Source: Umezawaea beigongshangensis
GTDB taxonomy: Bacteria; Actinomycetota; Actinomycetes; Mycobacteriales; Pseudonocardiaceae
Direction: 5' to 3'
Assembly: GCF_016464305.1 (NCBI RefSeq)
Contig: NZ_JAEIOJ010000003.1
Coordinates: forward strand, 124,001 to 188,000
Length of the DNA stretch: 64,000 nt
Made by a program: the position numbers and the translations under genes. Under the pieces are notes generated by a model. The model had not been told where the DNA came from. It saw only the letters and a program-made list of their open reading frames with translations, and did not search any database. Positions 5,098 through 60,528 of the stretch are shown here, in pieces (position 1 is the stretch's first letter; each line of letters begins with the position of its first letter).

Positions 5098-5921
5098 GCG
5101 CCGTGAACCTCGCCCTCCTCCACGCCAGAGCGGGCCTCACGGCGTTCGCGAAGCGCGGCGGCGACCTGCCCGGCACCGAGCGGACGCTGTCCGGCGTCAC
5201 CGCGGACCGGGCGCACCTCGCCGCCTACGACCGGGTGTGCGGGTTCCGGTTGCGCGACGAGCTGCCCGTGACCTATCCGCACGTGCTGGGCTTCACGCAG
5301 CAGCTGGCCCTGATGACCGCGCGGGACTTCCCGTTCGCACTGCCCGGCCTGGTGCACGTCGGCAACCGCGTCGAGTGGACGCGCCCGCTGCGCGCCGACG
5401 ACGTGCTGACGCTGCGGGTGCGCGCGCGCGACGCGCGACCGCACGAGCGCGGCACGCAGTTCGACGTGATCACCGCCGTGGAGGCCGGGGGCGAGGCCGT
5501 GTGGACCGGCACGTCGACCTACCTCAAGCGCGGTTCCGGTGCCGGTTCCGGTTCCGGCGAGCGAGAGCGCTCCGCGCCCCCGACGCCCGCCGCGGTGTGG
5601 CGGGTGCCGGGCGACACCGGCCGCCGCTACGCCGACGTGTCGGGCGACCGCAACCCCATCCACCTGCACGCGCTCACCGCGAGGGCGTTCGGCTTCCCGC
5701 GCGCCATCGCGCACGGCATGTGGAGCGCGGCGCGCTGCCTGGCCGCGCTGGAGGGCAGGCTGCCGGACGCGGGCAGCGTCGCCGTGAACTTCAAGGCACC
5801 GGTGCTGCTGCCCGCCGAGGTCGCGTTCGACGCGCGCGCCGACGGCGGGACGTGGCACTTCGGCCTGCGCGACGCCCGCAGCGGGAAACCGCACCTGGAC
5901 GGCGTGGTGACCAGCGCCTAA
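5094..5921 (+). CDS. htdX: MaoC-family 3-hydroxyacyl-thioester dehydratase, HtdX-like
   Basis: A 275-residue double hot-dog protein. The C-terminal MaoC domain has the hydratase-2 motif GDRNPIH with catalytic Asp at about 185 and His at about 190, followed by AFGFPRAIAHGMW. The two hot-dog halves are joined by a Gly/Ser/Glu linker near 147-159. I chose the GTG at 5094 because it overlaps the fabG stop (GTGA); the GTG at 5103 is an alternative. Placement after a FabG4-like gene matches the mycobacterial fabG4-htdX pair. The stop overlaps the convergent TetR stop by 3 bases. Confidence 0.85.
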   Translation: MSAVNLALLHARAGLTAFAKRGGDLPGTERTLSGVTADRAHLAAYDRVCGFRLRDELPVTYPHVLGFTQQLALMTARDFPFALPGLVHVGNRVEWTRPLRADDVLTLRVRARDARPHERGTQFDVITAVEAGGEAVWTGTSTYLKRGSGAGSGSGERERSAPPTPAAVWRVPGDTGRRYADVSGDRNPIHLHALTARAFGFPRAIAHGMWSAARCLAALEGRLPDAGSVAVNFKAPVLLPAEVAFDARADGGTWHFGLRDARSGKPHLDGVVTSA

Positions 5922-6568
5922 CGCCGTGCCGGCGGGTGCCAGACGGCGCCTTCCACGAGGTCGCCGAAGCCCAGCCACACCAGGTTCATCAGGCGCGCGG
6001 CGACGACGGCGGCGGGCTCCTCGGGGTTGTCGAGCCACCAGTCGGCGAGCGACTCTCCCGCGCCGACCAGGGCGGCGGCGAGGCTCTGCGCCTCCTGGCC
6101 CCTGGCCCGCTCCGACGCGTTCTCCAGCAGCGCGGCGACCAGGCCGATGGCCCGGCCGCGCATGTCGTTGAGCTCGGCGGCGAACGGCCCTCCCTGCGAG
6201 CTGGCCTGCCGGTGCAGCACCTGCCAGCTCGCCCGGTTCTCGCCGACGAAGTCGAAGAACGCGCGCAGGCCCGTCCACAGCTGCACGTCCGCCGCCCGGT
6301 CCACCTCGACGCCGTCGGCGATGGCCTCCATCAGACGGGTGGCCTCGCGCCGGATGCAGGTCGCGAACAGCTCTTCCTTGGAGCCGAGGTAGGCGTAGAG
6401 CATGGGCTTGGAGATGCCCGCGACGTCGGAGATCTCGTCCATCGACGCGGCGTGGAAACCCAGGCGCGAGAAGACGTCGACGGCGGCGTCCAGGATCTGC
6501 CTCTCCCGCACCGCGCGGGGAAGTCTCTTCGCTCTGCCGGCTCGGACCGGCTGGTCAGCTTGCATCAC
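5918..6568 (-). CDS. TetR-family transcriptional regulator
   Basis: A 216-residue TetR repressor. The N-terminal HTH spans roughly residues 22-68 with the typical core ISKPMLYAYLGSKEELF. The C-terminal ligand domain is divergent, as usual. It is transcribed divergently from the SCP2/acyl-CoA dehydrogenase pair, and its own upstream region contains the tandem boxes at 6615-6646. The same boxes lie upstream of the thiolase and fabG4-like genes. An acyl-CoA or lipid ligand is inferred from the regulated genes. A short Met-Met start leaves the exact N-terminus uncertain by one residue. Confidence 0.88.
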   Translation of the reverse strand: MMQADQPVRAGRAKRLPRAVRERQILDAAVDVFSRLGFHAASMDEISDVAGISKPMLYAYLGSKEELFATCIRREATRLMEAIADGVEVDRAADVQLWTGLRAFFDFVGENRASWQVLHRQASSQGGPFAAELNDMRGRAIGLVAALLENASERARGQEAQSLAAALVGAGESLADWWLDNPEEPAAVVAARLMNLVWLGFGDLVEGAVWHPPARR

Positions 6569-6614
6569 ACCCCCTGAGGACCAGAGAAGATTATCGAAGT
6601 TGCTTGCAGCCTTA

Positions 6615-6646
6615 CCTACTCATGAGTAGTCTTACTGGCCAGTAGG
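6615..6646. promoter_or_regulatory. Second tandem 16-bp operator pair
   Basis: CCTACTCATGAGTAGT (6615-6630) is directly followed by CTTACTGGCCAGTAGG (6631-6646). The core of the first is a perfect palindrome (CTACTCATGAGTAG) and so is the core of the second (TACTGGCCAGTA). The spacing and order of the two boxes are identical to 3722-3753. It lies between tetR and the SCP2 gene, so it should control both, giving autoregulation. Confidence 0.8.
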
Positions 6647-6661
6647 TACTGGAGGTGCCCC

Positions 6662-7312
6662 ATGACCATCGACCTCACCACCGAGGCGGTCGCGAAGCTC
6701 AGCCCGGCGGAGCTCATCAGCACGCTCAAGCAGGTCGATCCGGCCGATCCCGCCCTGGCTGGCGTCGACATCGACGCCGTCGCCCGCGGCGTCGACCCCA
6801 AGAAGCTCGGCAAGGACGAGTTCGCCGACCTGCTCTCCGCGCTGAGCGACCTCGCCGTCGCCAGCACGGCCTTCGACCTCGCCGCGATGGACGCCCAGAA
6901 CTTCGCACGCATCATCTCGCGCGCGTCCAAGGACCAGATCGAGACCGTCACCTCGCGGCCCGGTCTGCGCGAGCGCGTGCTCGACGAGGTGTTCCGGCGC
7001 ATGGAGAGCCACTTCCGCAGCGACCGCGCCGGCGCGACGAGGGCCGTGGTGCACTTCCGCCTCACCGGCGGGTTCGGCGAGGACGGGTACGACCGCTACG
7101 AGGCCGTCGTCGAGAACGCCGAGTGCACGATCAACAAGGGCGAGACCCGCGAGCCGCGCGCGACCGTGACGCTGCCGCCCGTCGAGTTCCTGAAGCTCGC
7201 CACCGGGAACGCGTCCGCCCCGGTGCTGTTCATGACCGGCAAGCTCAAGGTCACGGGGGACCTGGGTTTCGCGGCCGGGTTCATGTCGCTGTTCACCATT
7301 CCGAAGGCATAG
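6662..7312 (+). CDS. SCP2 sterol-binding domain protein
   Basis: A 216-residue protein. The C-terminal ~100 residues carry an SCP2 sterol-carrier fold (FRLTGG...[16 protein letters not shown]...[16 protein letters not shown]), which binds sterols or fatty acyl-CoA. The N-terminal half is a helical SCP2-associated region. The start ATG has a good GGAGG site about 8 bases upstream. It is 11 bases before the acyl-CoA dehydrogenase and surely in the same operon. A role in presenting or storing lipid substrates for that enzyme is inference. Confidence 0.85.
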
Positions 7313-7323
7313 GGGTTTCGCAC

Positions 7324-8538
7324 ATGGGCGGCTTCTCTCTGGAGCTGAACGAGGACCAGACCGATCTCCGCGACTGGGTGCACGGCTTCGCGGAGGACGT
7401 GATCCGCCCCGCCGCGTCGGAGTGGGACGAGCGGGAGGAGACGCCGTGGCCGGTGATCCAGGAGGCCGCCAAGATCGGCCTCTACGGCTTCGAGGCCCTC
7501 GCGACGTGGTTCGCCGACCCGATCGGCCTGTCGCTGCCGATCGCCACCGAGGAGCTGTTCTGGGGTGACGCGGGCATCGCGCTCGCGCTGATGGGCACCG
7601 GTCTCGCCGCGGCGGGCATCTTCGCCTCCGGCGAACCCGAGCAGCTCGCCGAGTGGGTGCCGGAGTGCTTCGGCACCGAGGACGACCCGAAGCTCGCCGC
7701 GTTCTGCGCCTCCGAGCCGCAGGCGGGCTCCGACGTCGCCGGGTACCGGACGCGGGCCCGCTACGACGAGGCCACCGACGAGTGGGTCCTCAACGGGCAG
7801 AAGGCGTGGGCCACCAACGGCGGCATCGCGAACGTGCACGTCGTGACCGCCGTCGTGGACCCCGAACTGGGCGCGCGCGGCCAGGCGGGCTTCATCGTCC
7901 CGCCCGGCACGCCCGGCCTGTCGAGCCCCGGCAAGATCAAGAAGCACGGCATGCGCGCCTCCCACACCGCCGACGTGTTCCTCGACGACGTCCGCGTGCC
8001 CGGCAGGTGCCTGCTGGGCGGCAGGGAGCGCCTGGAGCACCGCCTCGCCCGAGCCCGCGAGGGCCAGAGGGCGGGCGGCCAGGCCGCCATGGCGACGTTC
8101 GAGACCACCAGGCCCACGGTCGGCGCGATGGCGATCGGCGTGGCCAGGGCGGCGTACGAGTACTCGCTGGAGTACGCGAAGACCCGCGAGGCGTTCGGCC
8201 GCAAGATCATCGAGAACCAGTCCATCGCGTTCGACCTGGCGAACATGAGGATGGAGATCGACGCGGCCCGGATGCTGGTGTGGCGCGCGGCGTGGATGGG
8301 CCGCAACAACGTCCCCTTCACGGCGGGCGAGGGCTCGATGTCGAAGCTCAAGGCGGGCGAGGTGTCCGTGTGGGCGACGGAACGCGCGATTCACGTCCTG
8401 GGCGGCGCGGGCTACACCCGCGAGCACCCGGTGGAGCGGATGCACCGGGACGCGAAGATCTTCACCATCTTCGAGGGGACGAGCGAGATCCAGCGGTTGG
8501 TGGTGGCCAGGGCCATCTCCGGCATGTACATCCGCTGA
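7324..8538 (+). CDS. Acyl-CoA dehydrogenase (3' end rebuilt by the integrated element)
   Basis: A 404-residue FAD-dependent acyl-CoA dehydrogenase that forms the 2,3-enoyl-CoA. It shows the FAD/substrate motif [10 protein letters not shown], the KAWATNGG segment and the C-terminal signature FEGTSEIQR with the expected catalytic glutamate at E384. I chose ATG 7324, downstream of the SCP2 stop, because the protein then begins at the family N-terminus. The last codons lie in the attachment core at 8455-8516. The bases after the core differ from the chromosomal copy at 22132-22153 only synonymously, so the element rebuilds an intact C-terminus (ISGMYIR). Confidence 0.92.
8455..8516. repeat. attL core direct repeat
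   Basis: These 62 bases are identical to 22070-22131 and encode the [17 protein letters not shown] segment of the acyl-CoA dehydrogenase. Upstream bases differ from the right copy, and downstream identity breaks at synonymous positions, so the crossover lies within this core. Confidence 0.9.
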
Positions 8539-17072: not shown

Positions 17073-17623
17073 AAAATCTTTTCCTGTTTTAATTTCATTT
17101 CTGTTCGATTAACGACAGATAGGAGTTCCGACTCGGCTTGTTCAATAAAGATGGAAACAATATCATGAGGACCGTACCGTTTCTGAATTTCCTTCACGCG
17201 CTTCGCAAAAGTTTTTGGCGCACCGTCAGGAGTTGTAGTCATATCCGCCCACCACAAAGCATCTCTAATAGACGTTCTCTCATCTCGCCATGAGGAAAGC
17301 TCTAAAGACAAACCACGCATACCGGCCTCACGATATGCGCATGAATGGTGGGCAACCAAGCCACATATACGATTGTCCACACCTTGTGCTTCCAAGTACC
17401 TAGCGCCATCTAAGGGGTGAAATCCTGTTACCACCACACCGGGCGCATATCCAATGTCATGCAGGAGAGCTGCTGCAGTCAGAACCTGCGCCTCGTCATT
17501 GGAATAAACACCACCTATAGATTCCACCTTTGCGACTACTCCTTGAATATGTTTCCACCTTCGAGGAAGAGTATCGGCAAATAAATTTAAAGCGATCTCG
17601 TAAGCCCACTGCACTGAAGACAT
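17057..17623 (-). CDS. HD-domain phosphohydrolase
   Basis: A 188-residue HD-domain protein. The metal ligands are visible: His in RRWKHIQGV (about 25), LLHDIGYAPG with H55-D56, GFHPLDGARYL, and a later HHSCAYR. It is related to HDIG-type nucleotide phosphohydrolases. It is AT-rich relative to the backbone. It is convergent with the Nudix gene and directly left of the IS element. Substrate unknown; small HD proteins are common beside Nudix in these elements. Confidence 0.8.
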   Translation of the reverse strand: MSSVQWAYEIALNLFADTLPRRWKHIQGVVAKVESIGGVYSNDEAQVLTAAALLHDIGYAPGVVVTGFHPLDGARYLEAQGVDNRICGLVAHHSCAYREAGMRGLSLELSSWRDERTSIRDALWWADMTTTPDGAPKTFAKRVKEIQKRYGPHDIVSIFIEQAESELLSVVNRTEMKLKQEKIFYKEK

Positions 17624-17686
17624 ACGGCAATCTTAGTGCCTGTATCCGAGCTTGGTCGGGCGGAGAAGCTTTGGTGCGCAGACAGG

Positions 17687-17738
17687 GGAACTCCTGGTAG
17701 ATCGGACGGTGTCTATGCGCCGTTCCACCAGGAGTTCC
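17687..17738. other. Inverted repeat in IS leader
   Basis: GGAACTCCTGGT (17687-17698) pairs exactly with ACCAGGAGTTCC (17727-17738), just before the transposase start. In a transcript it would form a 12-bp stem that could block impinging transcription or sequester the start region. It lies inside the IS left end. Confidence 0.55.
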
Positions 17739-17739
17739 G

Positions 17740-18627
17740 TTGTTATCGTGCCCGATCCCCGCGGGCGGTTCGACCGCGGGTAGCCCGTGCTGCCGCCTGG
17801 CCGCCTCCCACCAGCCCACTCGACGGACAAGGCGGTATCCCACCGACCTCACCGACGCCCAGTGGGCCGAACTGGACCCGCTGTTGCCCGACCCCGCATG
17901 TCTGGCCGGTCGGGGCGGGCGGTGGGAGAAGCACTGCCGCCGCCTGATCGTGGACGCGATCGGCTACGTGGTCGACAACGGCATCAAATGGCGCGCTCTG
18001 CCCGCCGACTTCCCGCCCCGGCCCACGGTCCACAAGCGCTTCGCCCTGTGGGAGAAGGCCGGTGCCACGCAGCGGTTGCTCGACGCGTTGCGCGACCGGG
18101 TCCGGCTCGCGGAAGGGCGGGTGGCGGCGCCGTCGGCGACGGTCATGGACTCGCAGTCGGTACGCGCCGCCGAGACCGTAGGCCGGGCCACCCGGGGCTG
18201 GGACGGTGGCAAGAAGGTCGCGGGGCGCAAGCGCCACATCGTGGTGGACACCATGGGACTGCTGTTAACGGTGCTGGTGACCCCGGCTTCGACGCAGGAT
18301 CGAGTCGCCGCCCGCAGCCTGTTGCGGCGCCTGCGTGACACCGGAGGCAAGCGGGTGGCGCTGGTGTGGGCAGACGGCGGTTACACCGGCTCTCTGCTCG
18401 GCTGGGCCCGAGCAACCCCGGGCCTGCTGGTGGAGATCGTCCAACGCCCGCAAGTGCCGTACTTCACCGTGCTGCCACGAAGGTGGGTGGTAGAGCGGAC
18501 TCTGGCATGGATCAGCGGACACCGCCGCTGCGTCCGCGACTACGAACGCCTACGCCACCACCACGAGGCCATGGTCCGCTGGTCCATGATCCGCATCACC
18601 AGCCGCCGACTCACCCAACCCCAGTAG
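17740..18627 (+). CDS. IS5-family transposase
   Basis: A transposase of up to 295 residues. The N-terminal domain begins RRYPTDLTDAQWAELDPLLP, followed by an IS5/IS1182-type DDE core: TVMDSQSVRAAE (first Asp), VDTMGLLLTVLVTPAS, VWADGGYTG (second Asp) and the C-terminal WVVERTLAWISGHRRC with the catalytic Glu. All catalytic residues are present and the frame is open, so it may be active. The start is uncertain; TTG 17740 gives the longest form. Confidence 0.85.
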   Translation: MLSCPIPAGGSTAGSPCCRLAASHQPTRRTRRYPTDLTDAQWAELDPLLPDPACLAGRGGRWEKHCRRLIVDAIGYVVDNGIKWRALPADFPPRPTVHKRFALWEKAGATQRLLDALRDRVRLAEGRVAAPSATVMDSQSVRAAETVGRATRGWDGGKKVAGRKRHIVVDTMGLLLTVLVTPASTQDRVAARSLLRRLRDTGGKRVALVWADGGYTGSLLGWARATPGLLVEIVQRPQVPYFTVLPRRWVVERTLAWISGHRRCVRDYERLRHHHEAMVRWSMIRITSRRLTQPQ

Positions 18628-47205: not shown

Positions 47206-49017
47206 TCAGCCGAGCCGCTGCTTCAGCGCCTCGAACTCGTCGCGCAGCGACGTGGGGAGCGTGTCGCCGATCTTGTCGAACCACTCCTGGATCAGCGGCA
47301 GCTCGGCACGCCACTCGTCGGCGTCGAACACCAGCGACGCCTCGACGTCCTCGCGCGGGGCGTCGAGGTCCGACAGGTCCAGCTCGTCCGCGGTCGGCAC
47401 GTACCCGATCGGGGTCTCCCGCGCGGCGGACCCGCCCTCGATGCGCTCGATCGCCCACTTCAGGACGCGCGCGTTCTCGCCGAACCCCGGCCACAGGAAG
47501 CGCTCGTCCTCGCCGCGCCGGAACCAGTTCACGTAGAAGATCTTCGGGAGCTTCCGCGCGTCGGCGCTCTTGCCGAGCGAGATCCAGTGGTTGAAGTAGT
47601 CACCGGCGTTGTAGCCGATGAACGGCAGCATCGCCATCGGGTCGCGGCGCACCACGCCGGTCTCGCCCACCGCGGCGGCCGTGGTCTCCGACGACAGCGT
47701 GGCGCCCATGAAGACACCGTGCTGCCAGTCGCGCGACTCCGTGATCAGCGGGATCGTCGTGGCGCGACGGCCGCCGAAGAAGATCGCCGAGATCGGCACG
47801 CCCTTCGGGTCGTCCCACTCGGGGGCCTTGATGTCGCACTGGTCGATCGGCGTGCAGTAGCGGGAGTTCGGGTGCGACGACAGCTCGTCGGAGTCCGGCG
47901 TCCAGTCCTGCTTCTTCCACGAGGTGAGGTGCGCGGGCGGCTCGCCCATGCCCTCCCACCACACGTCGCCGTCGTCGGTCAGGGCGACGTTCGTGAACAG
48001 CGAGTTGCCCTTCTCGATCGTGCGCATCGCGTTCGGGTTGGTGTGGTAGTCGGTGCCGGGCGCGACGCCGAAGAAGCCGTTCTCCGGGTTCACGGCGTAG
48101 AGCTGGCCGTCGTCGCCGAAGCGCATCCAGGCGATGTCGTCGCCCAGCGTCTCGACCTTCCAGCCGGGGATCGTCGGCTCCAGCATCGCCAGGTTGGTCT
48201 TGCCGCAGGCCGACGGGAACGCGGCCGCGATGAAGTAGACCCTCTGCTCGGGCGAGGTGAGCTTGAGGATCAGCATGTGCTCGGCGAGCCAGCCCTCGTC
48301 GCGCGCCATCACCGAGGCGATGCGCAGCGAGTAGCACTTCTTGCCCAGCAGGGCGTTGCCGCCGTAGCCGGAGCCGTAGCTCCAGATCATCCGCTCCTCG
48401 GGGAACTGGACGATGTACTTCGTGTCGTTGCACGGCCACGCCACGTCGGCCCGGCCGTCCTCCAGCGGAGCGCCCAGCGAGTGCAGCGCGGGCACGAAGT
48501 CGGCGTCCTCGCCGAAGCGGGCCAGCGCCCTGGCGCCCATGCGCGTCATGATGTGCATCGACACCACGACGTACTCCGAGTCGGTGATCTCGACGCCGAG
48601 CATCGGCTTCTCCGCGTCGAGCGGACCCATGCAGAACGGGATCACGTACATCGTGCGACCGCGCATCGAGCCCCGGTAGAGCTCGGTCATGGTCGCCTTC
48701 ATCTCGTCCGGCGCCATCCAGTTGTTCGTGGGACCCGCGTCCTCGGGGTTCACCGAACAGATGAAGGTGCGCTCCTCGACACGCGCCACATCGGTCGGGT
48801 CAGAAGCCGCCCAGAACGAGTTGGGCTTCTTCTTCAACGGCACGAACGTGCCCGCGTCGACGAGTTTTTTCGTCAGGCGATCCCATTCAGCGGGGGAACC
48901 GTCGGCCCACACCACCTCGTCGGGGCCGGTCAGTTCGGCGACTTCGCGCACCCACGACAGCAGGCGCTGGTGGTTGGTCGGTGCCTGGTCGAGACCGGGA
49001 ATGGTCACTGCCGTCAT
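47206..49017 (-). CDS. pckG: Phosphoenolpyruvate carboxykinase (GTP)
   Basis: A 603-residue GTP-dependent PEPCK. The kinase P-loop is FPSACGKTN (267-275) with the reactive cysteine. Substrate and metal stretches include [39 protein letters not shown], and [23 protein letters not shown] for guanine binding. Length is standard. It converts oxaloacetate to PEP in gluconeogenesis. Monocistronic, with a ~325-base upstream region. Actinobacteria use the GTP form, which supports the taxonomic call. Confidence 0.97.
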
Positions 49018-49293
49018 CTCGTCTCGTCTCCTGACTGAACGCCAAACGCCCGCGCGGACGACGCTGCCCGTGCCCGGACTGCGGCGTCCTCGCGGAAATG
49101 GCTCCGCCCACCCCTGAGGGGTGTACGGGTTCTGGGGATGGACAGAGGTTAGCCGGGACGATCAGCACCAACACCCGCCCGACCTGTCGGGTCGCTCACA
49201 AAACCGATTCTGGAATCGATTCAGCATCCATTCACGTGACAGAACACGATCCGACTCCCGAGTGACCCCGGAAGAGGGATCGAAAAAACAAGA
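49018..49293. other. Upstream region of pckG
   Basis: About 276 bases with no gene. It holds the pckG promoter. A region of mild AT richness near 49200-49250 (AAAACCGATTCTGGAATCGAT) includes the palindrome-like CGATTC-TGGAATCG at 49204-49217. No riboswitch recognised. Confidence 0.4.
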
Positions 49294-49327
49294 GGGCCGG
49301 TGTGCGGTATCCACCACACACCGGCCC
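49294..49327 (-). terminator. Intrinsic terminator with U-tract
   Basis: GGGCCGGTGTG (49294-49304) pairs with CACACCGGCCC (49317-49327). On the minus strand it is followed by CTCTTGTTTTTTCG, a real U-tract. It ends the acidic-protein gene at 49342 and is the clearest rho-independent terminator in the window. Confidence 0.85.
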
Positions 49328-49341
49328 CGATCTGAAAGCGT

Positions 49342-50040
49342 TCAGTTGGGACTGATCCACTGCCCGGTGGTCGAGTCGATCCGCACGACGCCCTCCACGG
49401 TCACCGGGGTCTCGTCGTCGCCCCAGCCGTCGAGCGCCCCGCTGCGCGCGTCGGGCACGTACTTGCCGTCCGAGCCGATGTGGCCCGTCTCGACCTCGGT
49501 CCACCCGTCGCCGTCCCGCTCGGACATCGTCACGTCGCCCTCGGAGGTGATCTCCGTGGCGAGGTCGGCGTCGCCGTCGCCGTCCGCGTCGGTGAACAAC
49601 CACGTGTCGCCGTCGTCGTCGCGCACGACGGCGGTGTCCGCGCGTCCGTCGCCGTCGGTGTCCTCGGTGGCGGGACCGACCTCCTTCGAGCCGTCCTCGC
49701 TCGTGACGACGATGGTGCTGTCGTCACCGGTGTTGGTCCGCTGCTCGCGGCGGTCGTCGCCGGAGTCGCTCGGATCGACCGCGACCCACTCGCCGTCGTC
49801 CTCGTCGAACTTCGCCTGCGAGACGAGCTGGCCGTTCTCGTCGTAGGTGCTCATCAGGTCGGCGACGCCGTCGTCGTCCGTGTCGCTGAACGCGAGGTGC
49901 CCGCCGTCGTCCGTCTCGACGACCGCGCTCTCGTTCACGCCGTCGTCGTCGAGGTCGTAGGTGGCCTCCGCGGTGTAGTCCTCGTCCTCCACGGTGACCT
50001 TGAGCTCGCCGTCGGCTCCGCCGTTCTCGTCGATGTACAC
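49342..50040 (-). CDS. Acidic Asp-rich repeat protein (DUF6802-like)
   Basis: A 232-residue very acidic protein. Repeating blocks such as DLDDDGVNESAVVETDDGG, DTDDDGVADLM, DTDGDGRADTAVV and DADGDGDADLATE resemble calcium-binding type-3/FG-GAP-like loops. No signal peptide is visible at the chosen start (MYIDENGGADGELKV), so it would be cytosolic unless exported another way. The C-terminus has WISPN. It matches the actinobacterial acidic family I recall as DUF6802; function unknown. It ends in a strong terminator. Confidence 0.72.
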   Translation of the reverse strand: MYIDENGGADGELKVTVEDEDYTAEATYDLDDDGVNESAVVETDDGGHLAFSDTDDDGVADLMSTYDENGQLVSQAKFDEDDGEWVAVDPSDSGDDRREQRTNTGDDSTIVVTSEDGSKEVGPATEDTDGDGRADTAVVRDDDGDTWLFTDADGDGDADLATEITSEGDVTMSERDGDGWTEVETGHIGSDGKYVPDARSGALDGWGDDETPVTVEGVVRIDSTTGQWISPN

Positions 50041-50155: not shown

Positions 50156-52000
50156 TCAGCGGTCGCGGACGCTGCGGATGCGGCCCAGCAGGGAGTCCAC
50201 CTTCTCCCGGCCGCCGCGCACCTCCGCCAGGCGCTTGACCACGGCCTGGAGTTCGCGGGAGCGCTCGCTCGTCTCCATCTTCAGCGCCTTGTCGACCTCG
50301 CGCAGCTCCGTCTCGATCGCCTCGATGCGCTTGGTCAGGGCCTCGTCCAGGGCGAGCGACAGGGCCTGTTCCGCCTCGATGAGCTGTTCGGCCACGAGCT
50401 GGTCCAGGGTCGAGCGCGCGTCGGCGATGGAGTCCGAGAGCCACTGCTTCACGTGCTGCCTGTCGGCGGACTGCTTGCGGGTGCGGGCCATCCACCAGCC
50501 CGCGCCGAGGCCCAGGACGATCGTCACCGGCAGCACGATCGGGTTCAGCGCCGACACGCCGAACGCGGCGAGCGGCACGGCGGCCAGCTTGCTCGCGCCC
50601 ATGCCGCCCGACACGCCCATGAACACCAGCAGCTTGTCCTCGGCCGTCGGCGGGCGCTTGTCCGGCGGGCGGAGGACCACCGGCGGGTGCGGCGCGCGGG
50701 CGAACTGACCCCGGATCACGGCCAGCTCCTGCGGGGAGAACAGCTCGGCCAGCGCGGCGTCGGCGACGCGGGACAGGCGGTGCGACACGGCCGCGCTGAT
50801 GCGGCCGGACACCAGCTGGAGTGCGACGTCCACCTGGTGCGGCACACCGGGCAGCGCCTCGCGGCCAGCGGCGTCGACGGCGTGCCGGAACCACGTCTGC
50901 ACGTCCCGCATCTGGCGGCTGACCTCGTGGGCGTTCTCCACCCTGGCCCGCTGCACCTCCCCGCGCAGCTTCAGCTGCCAGCCGCGGGTGGACGAGCGGC
51001 GCTCGACCGCCAGCTCCTCGCGGCGGGTGCGCAGGGCGCGCGCCTCCTCCTCGCCGGTGGTCAGCGCGCGCTGCTCGGCCTCCAGCTTCACGACCTGCTC
51101 GTCGAGCACGGTCGACAGGCGGCGCAGGGCGTTGGCCTCGCCGAGCATCGCGGCACGGCCGACCACCAGCTCCTGCAGCGCGGCCTGGAGCTCGGCCACG
51201 CCGGAGCGCTCGCGCAGCATCGCCGCCGCGTCCGGGTTGGGCGCCTTGGCCGCCATCTCGAACAGCCGCGCCGACACCGGGTGGAACACGGCATCGGCGA
51301 AGCGCGGGGCGTGCTCGGCCAGCAGGGCCCGGTTCGCGTCGAGCACCTGCCGCCAGCCGCGGTACTGGTCGGTCTTGGCCAGCGCGAACACGACGGTCTC
51401 GACGCGCTCGCCGACGGTGCTCAGGAACGTCAGCTCGCCCCTGGTGAACGGCGCGGAGGCGTCCACGACGAACAGCAGCGCGGTGGCCGTCGCCGCGGCC
51501 TCGGCCGCCAGTTCGCCGTGCACGGAGCTCAGGCCGCCCACCCCGGGGGTGTCGACCAGCGTCATGCGCTCCAGCAGCGGGACGGGCACGTCGACCTCGA
51601 CGTGCCGCGGCGGGAGCTGACCGGCGGGCAGCTCGTGGGCCGCGGACACCCAGTGCACGAGGTCGGCCGGGTCGAACGGCACGGGTTCGTGCTGGCCCGG
51701 GTAGCAGGCGCGGGCCGCCCACCGCTCGGCGTGGGAGAAGACGAGGTACGTGGCGGTGGCGACCTCGGCGTCCACCGGCGACAGGCCTGGCGTCGCGAGC
51801 ACGGCGTTGACCAGGGAGCTCTTGCCGCGGTTGGTCTCCCCGACCACGACGACGCTCGGCGCGCGCCCCCTGCGCTCGCGGGCCTCGTCGATCCACTCGG
51901 CGGCGCGCGGATCGAGGCCGCGCACCAGCGCGGTGAGCTTCTCCCTGGTCTGGCGGACGAGCTGCGGCAGCGTCACCGACGTCGTCGGGGGCACGCTCAC
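50156..52000 (-). CDS. Dynamin-like GTPase (second of the operon)
   Basis: A 614-residue dynamin-family GTPase. G1 is GETNRGKS (54-61), G3 DTPGVGG (about 152), G4-like AKTDQYRGW. Long helical stretches follow (EALRTRREELAVERR and others) with a hydrophobic membrane segment at about 470-500 (LAAFGVSALNPIVLPVTIVLG), then a coiled C-terminus. GTG 52000 overlaps the grpE-like stop (GTGA). Bacterial dynamins such as Streptomyces DynA/DynB shape or repair membranes at septa; that is the probable role. Confidence 0.85.
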   Translation of the reverse strand: MSVPPTTSVTLPQLVRQTREKLTALVRGLDPRAAEWIDEARERRGRAPSVVVVGETNRGKSSLVNAVLATPGLSPVDAEVATATYLVFSHAERWAARACYPGQHEPVPFDPADLVHWVSAAHELPAGQLPPRHVEVDVPVPLLERMTLVDTPGVGGLSSVHGELAAEAAATATALLFVVDASAPFTRGELTFLSTVGERVETVVFALAKTDQYRGWRQVLDANRALLAEHAPRFADAVFHPVSARLFEMAAKAPNPDAAAMLRERSGVAELQAALQELVVGRAAMLGEANALRRLSTVLDEQVVKLEAEQRALTTGEEEARALRTRREELAVERRSSTRGWQLKLRGEVQRARVENAHEVSRQMRDVQTWFRHAVDAAGREALPGVPHQVDVALQLVSGRISAAVSHRLSRVADAALAELFSPQELAVIRGQFARAPHPPVVLRPPDKRPPTAEDKLLVFMGVSGGMGASKLAAVPLAAFGVSALNPIVLPVTIVLGLGAGWWMARTRKQSADRQHVKQWLSDSIADARSTLDQLVAEQLIEAEQALSLALDEALTKRIEAIETELREVDKALKMETSERSRELQAVVKRLAEVRGGREKVDSLLGRIRSVRDR

Positions 52001-52410
52001 GTCCGCGAGGTGTAGACGGTGACGATGGGCGGGCGCAGCGTCCTGCCCCGGTCCACGAAGCCGACGACCTCGGTCTCCGCGACCACGCCGTCGAGGCGCG
52101 GGTCGTCGGTGTGCACGGTGCCGCCCGCCTCGTGCAGCGACGGGTCGAACCGCTGGCCGTCCGGCCGCCACGCGACGACGCCGATCGCGGCGAGGCCGTC
52201 CTCCAGACGCTCCACGACGCCGGAGCTGCGCGCGCGGTCCAGCGCGTAGAGGCAGAGCTGGACCAGCGCGCGGCGTTCGCCGAGCGCCTGGTCGAGCAGC
52301 TCGTCACCGATCGTCTCCGTCAGGGGTGCCGCCACACCGGCTACCGACGCGACCGGGAGCTGTTCGGTTCCCGGCTCGTCCTGCCGGGCTCGTCGTGACC
52401 ACGGGCTCAC
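51997..52410 (-). CDS. GrpE-like nucleotide exchange factor
   Basis: A 137-residue GrpE-like protein. The N-terminal part is shorter than canonical GrpE and helical (ETIGDELLDQALGERRALVQ). The C-terminal beta-domain has the signature GQRFDPSLHEAGGTV and ends GFVDRGRTLRPPIVTVY. It overlaps both dynamin genes by four bases (GTGA). GrpE releases ADP from DnaK/Hsp70; no hsp70 gene lies nearby, so it would act on a DnaK-like partner elsewhere or on the GTPases. Confidence 0.82.
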   Translation of the reverse strand: MSPWSRRARQDEPGTEQLPVASVAGVAAPLTETIGDELLDQALGERRALVQLCLYALDRARSSGVVERLEDGLAAIGVVAWRPDGQRFDPSLHEAGGTVHTDDPRLDGVVAETEVVGFVDRGRTLRPPIVTVYTSRT

Positions 52411-53990
52411 CGCCGCCGCCCTCCGCCGCTGCCGCGCAACTGCTGCCAGACGAGGAAGTAGGCCCGGTGCACGACGTGGGCGACGCGGCTCTGCGCCGGG
52501 GTCGCGCCGAACGAGGCGAACGAGCGCCACCAGCCCGCCCGCTCCAGGGCGTGGGCCGCCAGCTCCTGCGGCGGCCGTCCCGGCAGGCCGAGCTGCTCGG
52601 CGATCTCGGGGCTGCTGCCGACGCGCAGGACCTCGTCCACGAGGTCCTGCGGCATGGCGACCGCGCCGGACGCGACGAGCGTCAGCGCCTCCAGCAGCCG
52701 GAGCTGGTGCGCCTCGGGCTTGGCGAGGAGGACCTCGATGGCGTTGTGCACGCGCTGCCGCTCGCCGGGATCGCCCGAGGCGTGGGCGAGCGCGGTGACC
52801 GAGGCGAGGGCGGCGGCGGCCTTGATGCCGTCGGCGCGGGAGCCGAACACGGCCCCCAGCTTGCCGCGCACCAGGTCGAGTCCGGACGAGTCGAGCAGCC
52901 TGCGGCGCAGGGCGCCCGCGGTGATCTCGGGCTCGGCGTCGATCGCGGCGAGCGCGCAGCCGATGCCGTAGAGGTCGAGCTTCTCCAGCAGCCGGACGCG
53001 GGTGCCCGCCGGCACGTCGCACTCCCAGCTGGCGAACAGGTCGGCCGACAGCAGGATCGTGTCGCGGGTGGCCCGGTCGAGCTGGGCGAGGGCGCGCAGC
53101 GAGTCGGCGTCGGCCGAGGTGAAGCCGCCGGTCTCGGCGGACTCGGCGAGCAGGCCCATCACCGGGATCACGTCGGCGACCCGCGGTCGCAGGCCGTGCG
53201 CCTGCTTCTCGGCGAGGAGCTGGGCGGCCCTCCACACGTCGCCGCCGGAGCCCTCGACGGACTCGGGGGCGATCGTGTCGGCCTTGTTGAGCACGGCGAT
53301 GGCGTTGACCGGTCCCGCCTCGCGGCTGGCGGTGGCCGCGGTGAACGCGGCGAGCGCCTGCTGGTCGTCGGCGCGCACGCCCTGCGTGACGACGTAGAGC
53401 ACGGCCTCCGCTCCGGCGACGGCGCTGCGGGACACCGGGTCGAGCTCGTCGCCGCGCACGCCGAGCAGCTCCTCCGTGCGGGCCACGGACGCCGCGTCGA
53501 GCGAGCCCAGACCGGGGGTGTCGATCACCGTGAGGTCGCGCAGCACCGCGTTGGTGAGGTACGCCTCCAGGTGCGACACGCGGTCCACGTCGACGCCGAG
53601 GGAGGCGGGGATCATGCCACCGGGGTCGAACGGCAGCACCTGCTTGCGGCCGTCGGTGAAGACGATCTCGATGCGGTCGACCGTGCCGTACTGGAAGCGG
53701 GTGACGAGCCGGGTGCACTCGCCGACGTCGGTCGGCGCGACCCGGCGGCCGATGAGCGCGTTGACGAGCGTGGACTTGCCGGACTTGATGCGTCCGGCGA
53801 CCGCGACCTGCAACGGGGCCGACAGCCTGCGCAGCACCTCGCCGAACCCGGCGGCGGTGCGCGGGGACACCTGCCGCTGGAGCGCGACGCACAGCTCGGC
53901 GACGGCGGCCGACAGCGGACCGGCGAACTGCTGGCCCGTCGTCCCCGGTGTCGTCCCTGGTGGCGCGGTCACGGTGTCAGATCGTGCCAC
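52407..53990 (-). CDS. Dynamin-like GTPase (first of the operon)
   Basis: A 527-residue dynamin-family GTPase. G1 is GRIKSGKST (66-74), G3 DTPGLGSLD, G4 LNKADTI. The N-terminus is Pro/Thr-rich, and the C-terminal half is helical without a clear membrane helix. I chose GTG 53990 (VARSDTVTAPPG), with a GGGGGAC site; a GTG at 54035 gives 15 more residues. Co-transcribed with the GrpE-like and second GTPase genes. The pair likely forms a hetero-oligomer. Confidence 0.85.
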   Translation of the reverse strand: MARSDTVTAPPGTTPGTTGQQFAGPLSAAVAELCVALQRQVSPRTAAGFGEVLRRLSAPLQVAVAGRIKSGKSTLVNALIGRRVAPTDVGECTRLVTRFQYGTVDRIEIVFTDGRKQVLPFDPGGMIPASLGVDVDRVSHLEAYLTNAVLRDLTVIDTPGLGSLDAASVARTEELLGVRGDELDPVSRSAVAGAEAVLYVVTQGVRADDQQALAAFTAATASREAGPVNAIAVLNKADTIAPESVEGSGGDVWRAAQLLAEKQAHGLRPRVADVIPVMGLLAESAETGGFTSADADSLRALAQLDRATRDTILLSADLFASWECDVPAGTRVRLLEKLDLYGIGCALAAIDAEPEITAGALRRRLLDSSGLDLVRGKLGAVFGSRADGIKAAAALASVTALAHASGDPGERQRVHNAIEVLLAKPEAHQLRLLEALTLVASGAVAMPQDLVDEVLRVGSSPEIAEQLGLPGRPPQELAAHALERAGWWRSFASFGATPAQSRVAHVVHRAYFLVWQQLRGSGGGRRR

Positions 53991-54080
53991 GACGCCGTCC
54001 CCCGGTGGAGGGGGAACCGTTTCTCCGGCTCGCACCCCGGGTAACCGGCCGAGTGGTGATCACCTGGAAGGAGCCACCAC

Positions 54081-58707: not shown

Positions 58708-58811
58708 ACTGAAGTCGGACCCGCCCGGCGACTACGGACCGATGTGCCGGAGGTGGGTTCCGGGGCAGGGTTGTGGTCGATGTCGGGGAAGAACGTTCTG
58801 GGGGAGAGCTC

Positions 58812-59759
58812 ATGATCGAGGCAATCGGCCTCACCAAGCGGTACGGGAAGACGGTGGCCGTCGACGACCTGTCGTTCTCCGTCGCACCCGGCCGCGTGAC
58901 CGGGTTCCTCGGTCCGAACGGCGCCGGGAAGTCCACCACCATGCGGATGATGCTGGGGCTGGACACCCCGACCGCGGGCAAGGTCCTCATCGACGGCAGG
59001 CCCTACCGCCAGATCGACCGTCCGCTGCGGACCGTCGGCGCGCTGCTGGACGCCAAGTGGGTGCACCCGAACCGCTCGGCGCGCGCCCACCTCCAGTGGA
59101 TGGCCAAGTCCAACGGCCTGCCCGACCGCCGCGTCGACGAGGTCCTCGACCTGGTCGGCCTGACGAAGGTCGCGAAGCGCCGGGCCGGCGGCTACTCCCT
59201 CGGCATGTCGCAGCGGCTCGGCATCGCGGGCGCCCTGCTGGGCGACCCGAAGGTGCTGCTGTTCGACGAGCCGGTCAACGGCCTCGACCCGGAGGGCATC
59301 CTCTGGATCCGCAAGTTCATGCAGGGCCTCGCCGCCGAGGGCCGCACGGTCCTCGTGTCGAGCCACCTGCTGTCGGAGATGGCGGTGACCGCGCAGGACC
59401 TCGTGGTCATCGGTCGCGGCAAGCTCATCTCGCAGAGCACCACGACCGAGTTCGTCGAGCGCTCCACCGAGAACTCCGTCCTGGTCCGCAGCCCCGAGCT
59501 GCCGAAGCTGCACTCGCTGCTGGTGGACAAGGGCTTCACCGTGCGCGAGGAGGACACCTCCGCGCTGACCGTCACCGGCGCGACGAGCGACCAGATCGGC
59601 GACCTCGCCGGAGCGAACGGCGTCGTGCTGCACGAGCTGAGCCCGCAGCGCGGCTCCCTGGAGCAGGCGTTCATGCAGCTCACCGGCGACTCCGTCGAGT
59701 ACCACGCAGAACTGGCCGAGGTCGTCGACACCGCCGCCCTCGCCCCGGCAGGGAAGTGA
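58812..59759 (+). CDS. ABC transporter ATP-binding protein (DrrA-like)
   Basis: A 315-residue ATPase of the DrrA/antibiotic-export type. Walker A GPNGAGKST, the signature LGMSQRLGIAGAL (degenerate LSGGQ), Walker B VLLFDEPVNGLDPEG and VSSHLLSEM. The C-terminal ~80 residues form the DrrA-type regulatory extension. Start ATG 58812 with a GGGAG site. It is four bases from the permease gene and powers it. A paralogue lies at 60703-61650. Confidence 0.9.
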   Translation: MIEAIGLTKRYGKTVAVDDLSFSVAPGRVTGFLGPNGAGKSTTMRMMLGLDTPTAGKVLIDGRPYRQIDRPLRTVGALLDAKWVHPNRSARAHLQWMAKSNGLPDRRVDEVLDLVGLTKVAKRRAGGYSLGMSQRLGIAGALLGDPKVLLFDEPVNGLDPEGILWIRKFMQGLAAEGRTVLVSSHLLSEMAVTAQDLVVIGRGKLISQSTTTEFVERSTENSVLVRSPELPKLHSLLVDKGFTVREEDTSALTVTGATSDQIGDLAGANGVVLHELSPQRGSLEQAFMQLTGDSVEYHAELAEVVDTAALAPAGK

Positions 59760-59763
59760 CCCG

Positions 59764-60528
59764 ATGACTCAGCTCGCAGTCGAACGCATCAAGCTCTTCT
59801 CCACCCGCTCGCCGTGGTGGTGCATGGCGCTGGCGCTGGGCATCACGGTGGGCCTCACCGCGATCATCGCGGCCAACTCGAACGACGAGTTCCCGCTGAC
59901 CGTCCAGGCCACGCAGTTCGCCCACACCTTCGGCCTCTACGTGATCATGGTGATGGCGGCGCTCGCGATCACCACCGAGTACCGCTTCGGCACGATCAGG
60001 GCCACGTTCCAGGCGGTGCCGAACCGGATCTCGCCGCTGGTCGCCAAGGCCGTCGTCGTGGCCGTGCTCGCCGGGATCGTCGGCGAGATCACCGCGTTCG
60101 CGTCGTGGGGCGTGTCGAAGCTCCTCCAGCCCGACATGACCCTCGCGCTGGACTCCGCCAACGACTGGCGGCACGTGGCCGGTGTCGGCCTCGTCTACGC
60201 CGTGGGCGCCGTCCTCGCGCTGGCCGTGGGACTGCTCGTGCGGCAGACCGCGGCGGCCGTCGCGATCATCCTGGTCTTCCCGCTGCTGGTGGAGAGCCTG
60301 GTCGGGCTCATCCCGAAGATCGGCACGGACATCCAGGAGTGGCTGCCGTTCCAGTCGGCCAGCAACTTCGTCCTGGGCGGCCCGGACCTGAGCGGTCGTC
60401 CGACCGACGCGGGCCCGCCGCAGATGGACCTCCCGCTGAGCCCGTGGGGTTCGCTCGCCTACTTCACGGCCATCTCGGTGGCCCTGCTCGTCGTGGCGCT
60501 CGTGGTGACCACCAAGCGCGACGCGTGA
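59764..60528 (+). CDS. ABC transporter permease (ABC-2 type)
   Basis: A 254-residue permease with about six helices: WWCMALALGITVGLTAIIAA, FGLYVIMVMAALAITTEYRFGTIRATF, and others. The TEYRFGTIR stretch is the conserved cytosolic element of this family. Five bases after the ATPase. It exports an unidentified small hydrophobic compound. Confidence 0.85.
   Translation: MTQLAVERIKLFSTRSPWWCMALALGITVGLTAIIAANSNDEFPLTVQATQFAHTFGLYVIMVMAALAITTEYRFGTIRATFQAVPNRISPLVAKAVVVAVLAGIVGEITAFASWGVSKLLQPDMTLALDSANDWRHVAGVGLVYAVGAVLALAVGLLVRQTAAAVAIILVFPLLVESLVGLIPKIGTDIQEWLPFQSASNFVLGGPDLSGRPTDAGPPQMDLPLSPWGSLAYFTAISVALLVVALVVTTKRDA

Follow-up and report, generated by a model that had tools for sequence, protein, structure and literature searches.

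We analysed a 64,000-nucleotide stretch of the Umezawaea beigongshangensis genome (contig NZ_JAEIOJ010000003.1, positions 124,001 to 188,000), referred to here as the window, which carries an operon of two dynamin-like GTPase genes with a gene for a GrpE paralogue between them. On the minus strand, the order is dynA (52407..54035, 542 aa from the GTG at 54035), the gene for the paralogue, which we call GrpE2 (51997..52410, 137 aa), and dynB (50156..52000, 614 aa). Adjoining genes overlap by GTGA at both junctions, as had been noted in an earlier sequence-only reading of this DNA: the dynA stop codon (52409-52407) overlaps the GrpE2 start at 52410, and the GrpE2 stop codon (51999-51997) overlaps the dynB start at 52000. 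The in-frame GTG codon at 53990, taken as the dynA start in that reading, is just as plausible as the one at 54035, and GTG 53972 is a further option; relatives of the protein mostly align only from about residue 20-40 onward. The operon itself contains no hsp70 gene. About 80 kb away on the same contig is the housekeeping dnaK-grpE pair, and three more Hsp70-like genes of the 6.5-Mb genome lie on other contigs.

DynA and DynB both contain a dynamin GTPase domain with G1 and G3 motifs. The Dynamin_N profile (cut-off 27) matches DynA with 50.2 bits and DynB with 54.3 bits, and the motifs are GRIKSGKS (G1) and DTPG (G3, at 172) in DynA and GETNRGKS and DTPG in DynB. In a phylogenetic tree, DynA groups with the genome's own IniC and other DynA sequences and DynB is placed on the IniA side, both sides being supported by 100/100. 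The closest solved relative of DynB is IniA (6j72, E 4.4e-17). A hydropathy scan locates a hydrophobic stretch at approximately residues 472-505 of DynB and finds no hydrophobic segment in DynA.

GrpE2 is identified as a GrpE paralogue by profile and fold. PF01025 matches with 29.7 bits (cut-off 25.8), the match being limited to residues 67-132 in the head. An AlphaFold model based on 29 sequences has a mean pLDDT of 86.9, with block means of 95-98 from residue 41, and shows helices at residues 30-59 and 63-75 followed by the GrpE beta head at 78-135. These two helices of the monomer model are 30 and 13 residues long, and the N-terminus of the model is poorly predicted. In a comparison of the model with the PDB (VIA-align), the top seven of the rows listed are all GrpE chains, including 1dkg_B (126 residues aligned, Z 11.3, 3.9 Å), and the first non-GrpE row follows at Z 5.8; this comparison, like the one for Hsp70 below, speaks only for the families in the listed rows. 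Hence, the sequence-only description of two dynamin-like GTPases around a GrpE-like factor is borne out by the Dynamin_N and PF01025 scores and by the fold comparison. Whether 16 or 29 sequences are aligned, most of the invariant GrpE2 residues fall in the head, and GrpE2 shares 33% identity over 93 residues with the housekeeping GrpE. In 18 close Pseudonocardiaceae pairs, which were picked by hand and share members so that they are not independent, the head of GrpE2 has a median dN/dS of 0.063 (maximum 0.198), and the medians are 0.112 for dynA, 0.100 for dynB and 0.127 for the phosphoenolpyruvate (PEP) carboxykinase gene pckG. The GrpE2 head is under strong purifying selection. The idea of a decaying remnant was rejected, as the head dN/dS is at most 0.198 in these pairs.

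Within the Pseudonocardiaceae, we searched 150 genomes including that of the window. GrpE2 is detected at E 6e-15 or better in 123 of them; six have only weak matches at the level of the housekeeping protein and 21 have none. In 19 of 20 fetched stretches from this family, dynA, GrpE2 and dynB occur together with a DUF6802 gene and pckG, and in 18 of these 19 a histidine kinase gene is present too. Thus, the grouping is not due to chance, and the dynA-GrpE2-dynB operon with its GrpE paralogue and locally without hsp70 is real. Hsp70 genes are absent from those 19 stretches, one of which is 14.8 kb long. The DUF6802 gene lies downstream of dynB in 19 of the 20 stretches; in L064, in which pckG and DUF6802 are inverted, it lies beyond pckG on the other strand. 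In the window, the DUF6802 gene (49342..50040, minus strand) encodes an acidic repeat protein of 232 aa recognised by PF20615 (35.2 bits) and by synteny. It begins 115 bases past dynB and its product is a probable fourth member of the set. A pattern scan places a terminator-like stem-loop with a T run at 49293..49328 (minus strand), 3' of the DUF6802 gene (one found against a shuffle mean of 0.7, weak alone), and a promoter-consensus scan found none against 0.1 expected. The GTP-dependent PEP carboxykinase gene pckG (47206..49017, minus strand; PEPCK Pfam matches and synteny) serves as a syntenic landmark outside the proposed machine.

The twentieth stretch, L068, holds a different cluster consisting of dynA, a protein kinase gene, a membrane-anchored GrpE2, dynB and an Hsp70-like gene, with a J-domain protein (35.6 bits, cut-off 27.8) encoded nearby. 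This is the fullest set that we observed, with two dynamins, a Ser/Thr kinase, an anchored GrpE2, an Hsp70 ATPase domain and a J-domain protein (L068:6114-14996 and 17226-18257). A window-type operon was also seen in another order (L099, from an f15 genome with a listed contamination of 5), where it may be a stray contig or the result of a transfer.

Outside the Pseudonocardiaceae, an Hsp70-like gene accompanies dynA, GrpE2 and dynB in eight families with differing flanks. A class-wide search of 394 genomes gave 31 genomes with matches at 1e-7, three of them Pseudonocardiaceae, and 24 stretches were fetched, one of which extends L068. An order-wide search of 397 genomes gave 107 matches and 36 stretches and added the groups f3, f50, f51, f52, f57, f58 and f59. 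We took f20 as Frankiaceae, f19 as Streptosporangiaceae and f51 as Nakamurellaceae. The f20 and f19 clusters contain dynA, GrpE2 and dynB plus one to three Hsp70-like genes. The loci were recounted from sequence in stretches of up to 20 kb that contain all three genes; the samples overlap (L101/L148, L103/L153, L207/L196), and L106, L110-L121, L229 and L237, in which the three genes were not all found at the thresholds, were left out. In this recount, an Hsp70-like gene is present in the stretch in 7/7 f51, 2/2 f52, 4/4 f59, 1/1 f57 and 1/1 f58 loci and in 4/5 f50 loci, the miss being a 4.2-kb contig. The counts are 4/4 and 1/1 in two Frankiaceae samples, 5/5 and 11/11 in overlapping Streptosporangiaceae samples, 1/1 for the named Nakamurellaceae locus and 1/1 for the L068 type, compared with 0/19, 0/40 and 0/2 in Pseudonocardiaceae and 0/1 for the window itself. 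A scan of named genomes found 53 loci, all with dynA, GrpE2 and dynB. An Hsp70-like gene is present in 13 of them (Parafrankia soli, 11 Streptosporangiaceae and Nakamurella aerolata), 39 are of the Pseudonocardiaceae type with pckG and no Hsp70 (one of them labelled Nocardia sp.) and one contig is too short.

The absence of Hsp70 stated in the sequence-only reading is thus a local state of the window operon, and the system as a whole is not characterised by it. The reading had also named a finding that would speak against it, namely homologous operons that always include hsp70 with a loss in the window. This largely describes the distribution, except for the word "always", as 11 of the 12 f3 operons and the f15 operon lack an Hsp70 gene in the stretch.

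The arrangement in Nakamurella aerolata (L196) offers a direct comparison with the window. There, an ABC transporter gene pair is followed by an Hsp70-like gene (5498-7543), dynA, GrpE2, inserted genes, dynB and DUF6802. A homologous ABC transporter pair is located in the window at 58773..60528 on the plus strand, the Pfam match of its membrane subunit being below the cut-off. The Hsp70 gene lies directly upstream of dynA in six of the seven f51 loci, four of these with the ABC pair, and four f50 loci have the order Hsp70, dynA, GrpE2, dynB, with pckG present as well in three. Since the ABC pair, pckG and the gene order are shared at the syntenic site, the window operon looks like the Nakamurella and f50 arrangement minus the Hsp70 gene. 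As the Nakamurella Hsp70 gene directly precedes dynA at this site, the operonic Hsp70 gene was probably lost or moved in the window lineage. Six Hsp70 genes of the f3 group illustrate a partner that moved: they group with the operonic genes of f52, f57 and f59 (100/99) though they lie away from the operon, at 54 to 300 kb on the same contig in five genomes and at approximately 960 kb in the sixth. The GrpE2 tree, whose root is unsure and some of whose branches are long, agrees in outline with an arrangement from which the Hsp70 gene is missing: type A, which lacks Hsp70, branches within the types linked to it (A+B+D 93/84, with C outside); the Frankiaceae and L068 sequences are sister to the Hsp70-less type and the Streptosporangiaceae sequences fall outside. 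A hydrophobic span is present in 10/10 scanned GrpE2 proteins of types B, C and D compared with 0/19 of type A, and none was found in the L106 GrpE2 or in two scanned GrpE proteins of type E.

The Hsp70-like proteins have an unusual architecture. We checked six of them, five from dynamin neighbourhoods (own C44, L196, L101, L103 and L068) and one unlinked paralogue (own C1). The HSP70 profile scores above its cut-off in all six, and a DnaK-type ATPase domain is thus present. The best PF00012 match stops at profile position 368-375 of 599 in every case; it ends with the ATPase domain, and therefore no peptide-binding domain is matched in these proteins. A hydrophobic span past the ATPase domain is found in own C1, own C55 and L196, and in Parafrankia an Hsp70 ATPase domain encoded beside the dynamin pair is fused to WD40 repeats (L101:12853-15087). 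For types B, C and D, the Hsp70-like proteins linked to dynamins fall outside the DnaK clade. When a model of the L196 ATPase domain (pLDDT 86.5 from nine sequences) is compared with DnaK, 341 residues align at Z 36.7; with 1dkg_D, the DnaK of the GrpE complex, 336 residues align. Because of the latter alignment, the lobes bound by GrpE in 1dkg should be present in the modelled L196 Hsp70. The sequence-only reading had derived a chaperone step from the combination of GrpE and dynamins. An Hsp70-type step is indeed pointed to by the nearby Hsp70-like genes, whereas the term chaperone is doubtful, given that in the six proteins checked the best profile match does not extend past the ATPase domain.

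Based on gene content and predicted folds, we consider it rather likely that the actinomycete dynamin-pair operon is controlled by an Hsp70-type ATPase switch with GrpE2 as its exchange factor, the Hsp70 being encoded at an unlinked site in Pseudonocardiaceae. DynA, from the IniC side, and DynB, from the IniA side and with its putative hydrophobic hairpin, would combine into a hetero-assembly at the inner side of the membrane. The ATP switch might be a dedicated protein of the Hsp70 type, which in the copies checked has a DnaK-type ATPase domain and no matched peptide-binding domain and in some cases carries a membrane span or WD40 repeats. GrpE2 would bind this protein as a nucleotide exchange factor and reset it, and the reset might either load the dynamin assembly or take it apart. 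In Pseudonocardiaceae, where the operonic Hsp70 gene would have been lost or moved, GrpE2 may work with an Hsp70-like protein encoded elsewhere. A more general form of this proposal, in which actinomycetes use a GrpE-reset, non-chaperone ATPase of the Hsp70 fold as a dedicated dynamin-pair switch that is able to act across the membrane and from an unlinked gene, is put forward tentatively and might well not hold.

The best candidate partners of GrpE2 in U. beigongshangensis may be the membrane-spanning C1 protein or its cousin on C55, which is linked to the type VII secretion system (T7SS). The C1 gene (G000:C1:115900-117774) encodes the protein of this genome most similar to the ATPase domain of the Nakamurella operonic Hsp70 (62% over 351 residues); the identity of the latter is 45% to the C55 protein, whose gene adjoins one of the T7SS, and 30% to DnaK. 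In the tree, C55 sits on a long branch and its position is uncertain. In the window's genome, an Hsp70 ATPase-domain protein with a hydrophobic span is encoded directly after an EccC-like T7SS gene, as judged by eye (L007:9236-11197). In each of four f50 genomes, the single C1-type Hsp70 match at E 1e-40 lies in the operon. Among the 150 family genomes, C1 is matched at E 1e-50 or better in 123/123 genomes with GrpE2 compared with 13/27 without it.

Several observations weigh against the proposed switch. The Fisher p of 1e-12 for the co-occurrence of C1 and GrpE2 ignores kinship, and the 14 double-negative genomes belong to four genera. Among the 123 genomes with GrpE2, 21 match C1 only weakly even at best (E 1e-63 to 1e-108), as does the L068 genome, so that these have no close C1 orthologue; we assume that the weak matches are T7SS-type cousins. 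Close C1 orthologues do not strictly accompany GrpE2 in the 123 genomes. C1 as the relocated operonic gene was rejected, as a wider tree places it as sister to non-operonic Nakamurellaceae paralogues (95/94), and hence the operonic copy itself seems to be lost in the window genome. Furthermore, only 1/12 f3 operon stretches and 0/1 of f15 contain an Hsp70-like gene, the Hsp70 gene is about 7 kb from the dynamin genes in f58 and in one f59 locus, and L235 has both dynamins and GrpE2 yet no Hsp70 in 14.7 kb. Conversely, GrpE2 copies occur where dynamins were not detected (L106, L112-L114, L229 and L237).

GrpE2 might instead have left the Hsp70 cycle in Pseudonocardiaceae and serve as a structural adaptor between DynA and DynB, comparable to a small subunit. 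The Pseudonocardiaceae operons of this gene order that were examined lack Hsp70, 19/19 GrpE2 proteins of type A have no hydrophobic anchor and the two 4-bp overlaps suggest a tight coupling of GrpE2 to the dynamins. We nevertheless regard an adaptor as unlikely, because the conserved part of GrpE2 is the GrpE head, which is kept in Hsp70-linked operons too, the dN/dS of this head is below that of both dynamins and a divergent Hsp70-like ATPase is kept in all 123 GrpE2 genomes. Alternatively, GrpE2 could be a second exchange factor that brings the housekeeping DnaK to the dynamins. A housekeeping dnaK on the same contig and the retained GrpE fold are compatible with such a recruitment, which we judge to be distinctly improbable: GrpE2 is distant from the housekeeping GrpE, and most other families place GrpE2 near divergent Hsp70s outside the DnaK clade, the Nakamurella one being 30% identical to the DnaK of U. 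beigongshangensis. Moreover, stretches that combine GrpE-like genes with DnaK-like Hsp70 genes (L110, L111, L115 and L117-L120) form a separate set in which no dynamins were detected. That the neighbourhood is a mere shared envelope-stress locus, in which the Hsp70, dynamin and GrpE proteins do not act jointly, can practically be dismissed: although some clusters also contain genes for sigma-factor-like proteins, a kinase and acidic repeat proteins, and the neighbours vary between families, the same combination is seen in eight families besides Pseudonocardiaceae whose flanking genes differ, and the sole C1-type match of the four f50 genomes is always operonic.

The preferred reading, an Hsp70-type switch reset by GrpE2, can be compared with described systems. 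The mycobacterial iniBAC operon with IniR shares the paired dynamin-like GTPases, with DynB on the IniA side and DynA on the IniC side (PMC6715688, PMC5760070). In contrast to iniBAC, in which iniA precedes iniC, the window has the IniC-like gene first, GrpE2 in the middle and the IniA-like gene last, and GrpE is absent from the descriptions of iniBAC in the passages of these two papers. With IniB of the same genome as the query, no match at 1e-5 was left in the window once overlapping matches had been discarded. Filing the window operon as iniBAC was rejected, as it has no iniB and a different gene order. A separate iniBAC-like locus of the U. beigongshangensis genome (L009:4171-12327) contains an Hsp70 ATPase-domain gene and a LuxR-type regulator that is IniR-like by place and domains. 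Both iniB and iniA lie beside this Hsp70 gene in 5/5 loci (the own genome and four relatives). The L009-type Hsp70 is matched at 1e-60 in 57/150 family genomes and is less widespread than GrpE2.

A dnaK-like gene adjoins iniR in M. smegmatis according to one passage (PMC5760070), and a gene with a DnaK domain lies downstream of some cyanobacterial dynamin genes, for which a linked activity was suggested by the authors (PMC5827413). These passages are precedents for a link between Hsp70 and dynamins, and neither includes GrpE. The cyanobacterial case resembles the window in that a bacterial dynamin gene is linked to an Hsp70-domain gene, but it is not the actinomycete pair, and it is likened here by its description rather than by sequence. 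The GAP1-N2 systems described in PMC7159879 are similar: in actinobacteria, they bring together at the membrane a GTPase with HSP70, GrpE and DnaJ, and they include HSP70 forms that lack the peptide-binding domain. They differ in having GAP1 and another type of GTPase, and the word dynamin does not occur in the main text of that paper; this likeness, too, is drawn from the description. The stretches with GrpE-like and DnaK-like genes mentioned above recall the GAP1-N2 theme. Compared with the DnaK-GrpE pair of known structure (1dkg, 8gb3, 4ani), GrpE2 has the same head fold and the Nakamurella operonic Hsp70 a DnaK-type ATPase domain. However, GrpE2 is shorter, with a first helix of 30 residues in the model, and the checked Hsp70-like proteins match no peptide-binding domain. 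Hsp70 genes near bacterial dynamins have thus been reported, whereas no report of GrpE with bacterial dynamins was found among the papers listed in the literature searches, from which most subscription papers are missing.

How bacterial dynamins are activated and removed from membranes is poorly known, and the operon names concrete candidate regulators in culturable soil actinomycetes. It suggests that the nucleotide cycle of Hsp70 and GrpE might have been co-opted as a switch without peptide binding. If true, this would add an ATP-driven layer of control to bacterial dynamins.

Two further observations are of note. In L116 (type E), one of the loci below the recount thresholds, gene calls give dynA, a GrpE gene (41.5 bits), dynB and, past an insertion, an Hsp70-like gene, whose branch in the tree is very long. 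The insertion at L116:12093-14017, between dynB and the Hsp70-like gene, appears by eye to be an IS607-like element with resolvase-like and TnpB-like genes. Acidic repeat proteins rich in aspartate are encoded next to the dynamin pair more than once: in the window and in Nakamurella this is the DUF6802 protein, and in Streptosporangiaceae a small DGDG-repeat protein (L105:8696-8980).

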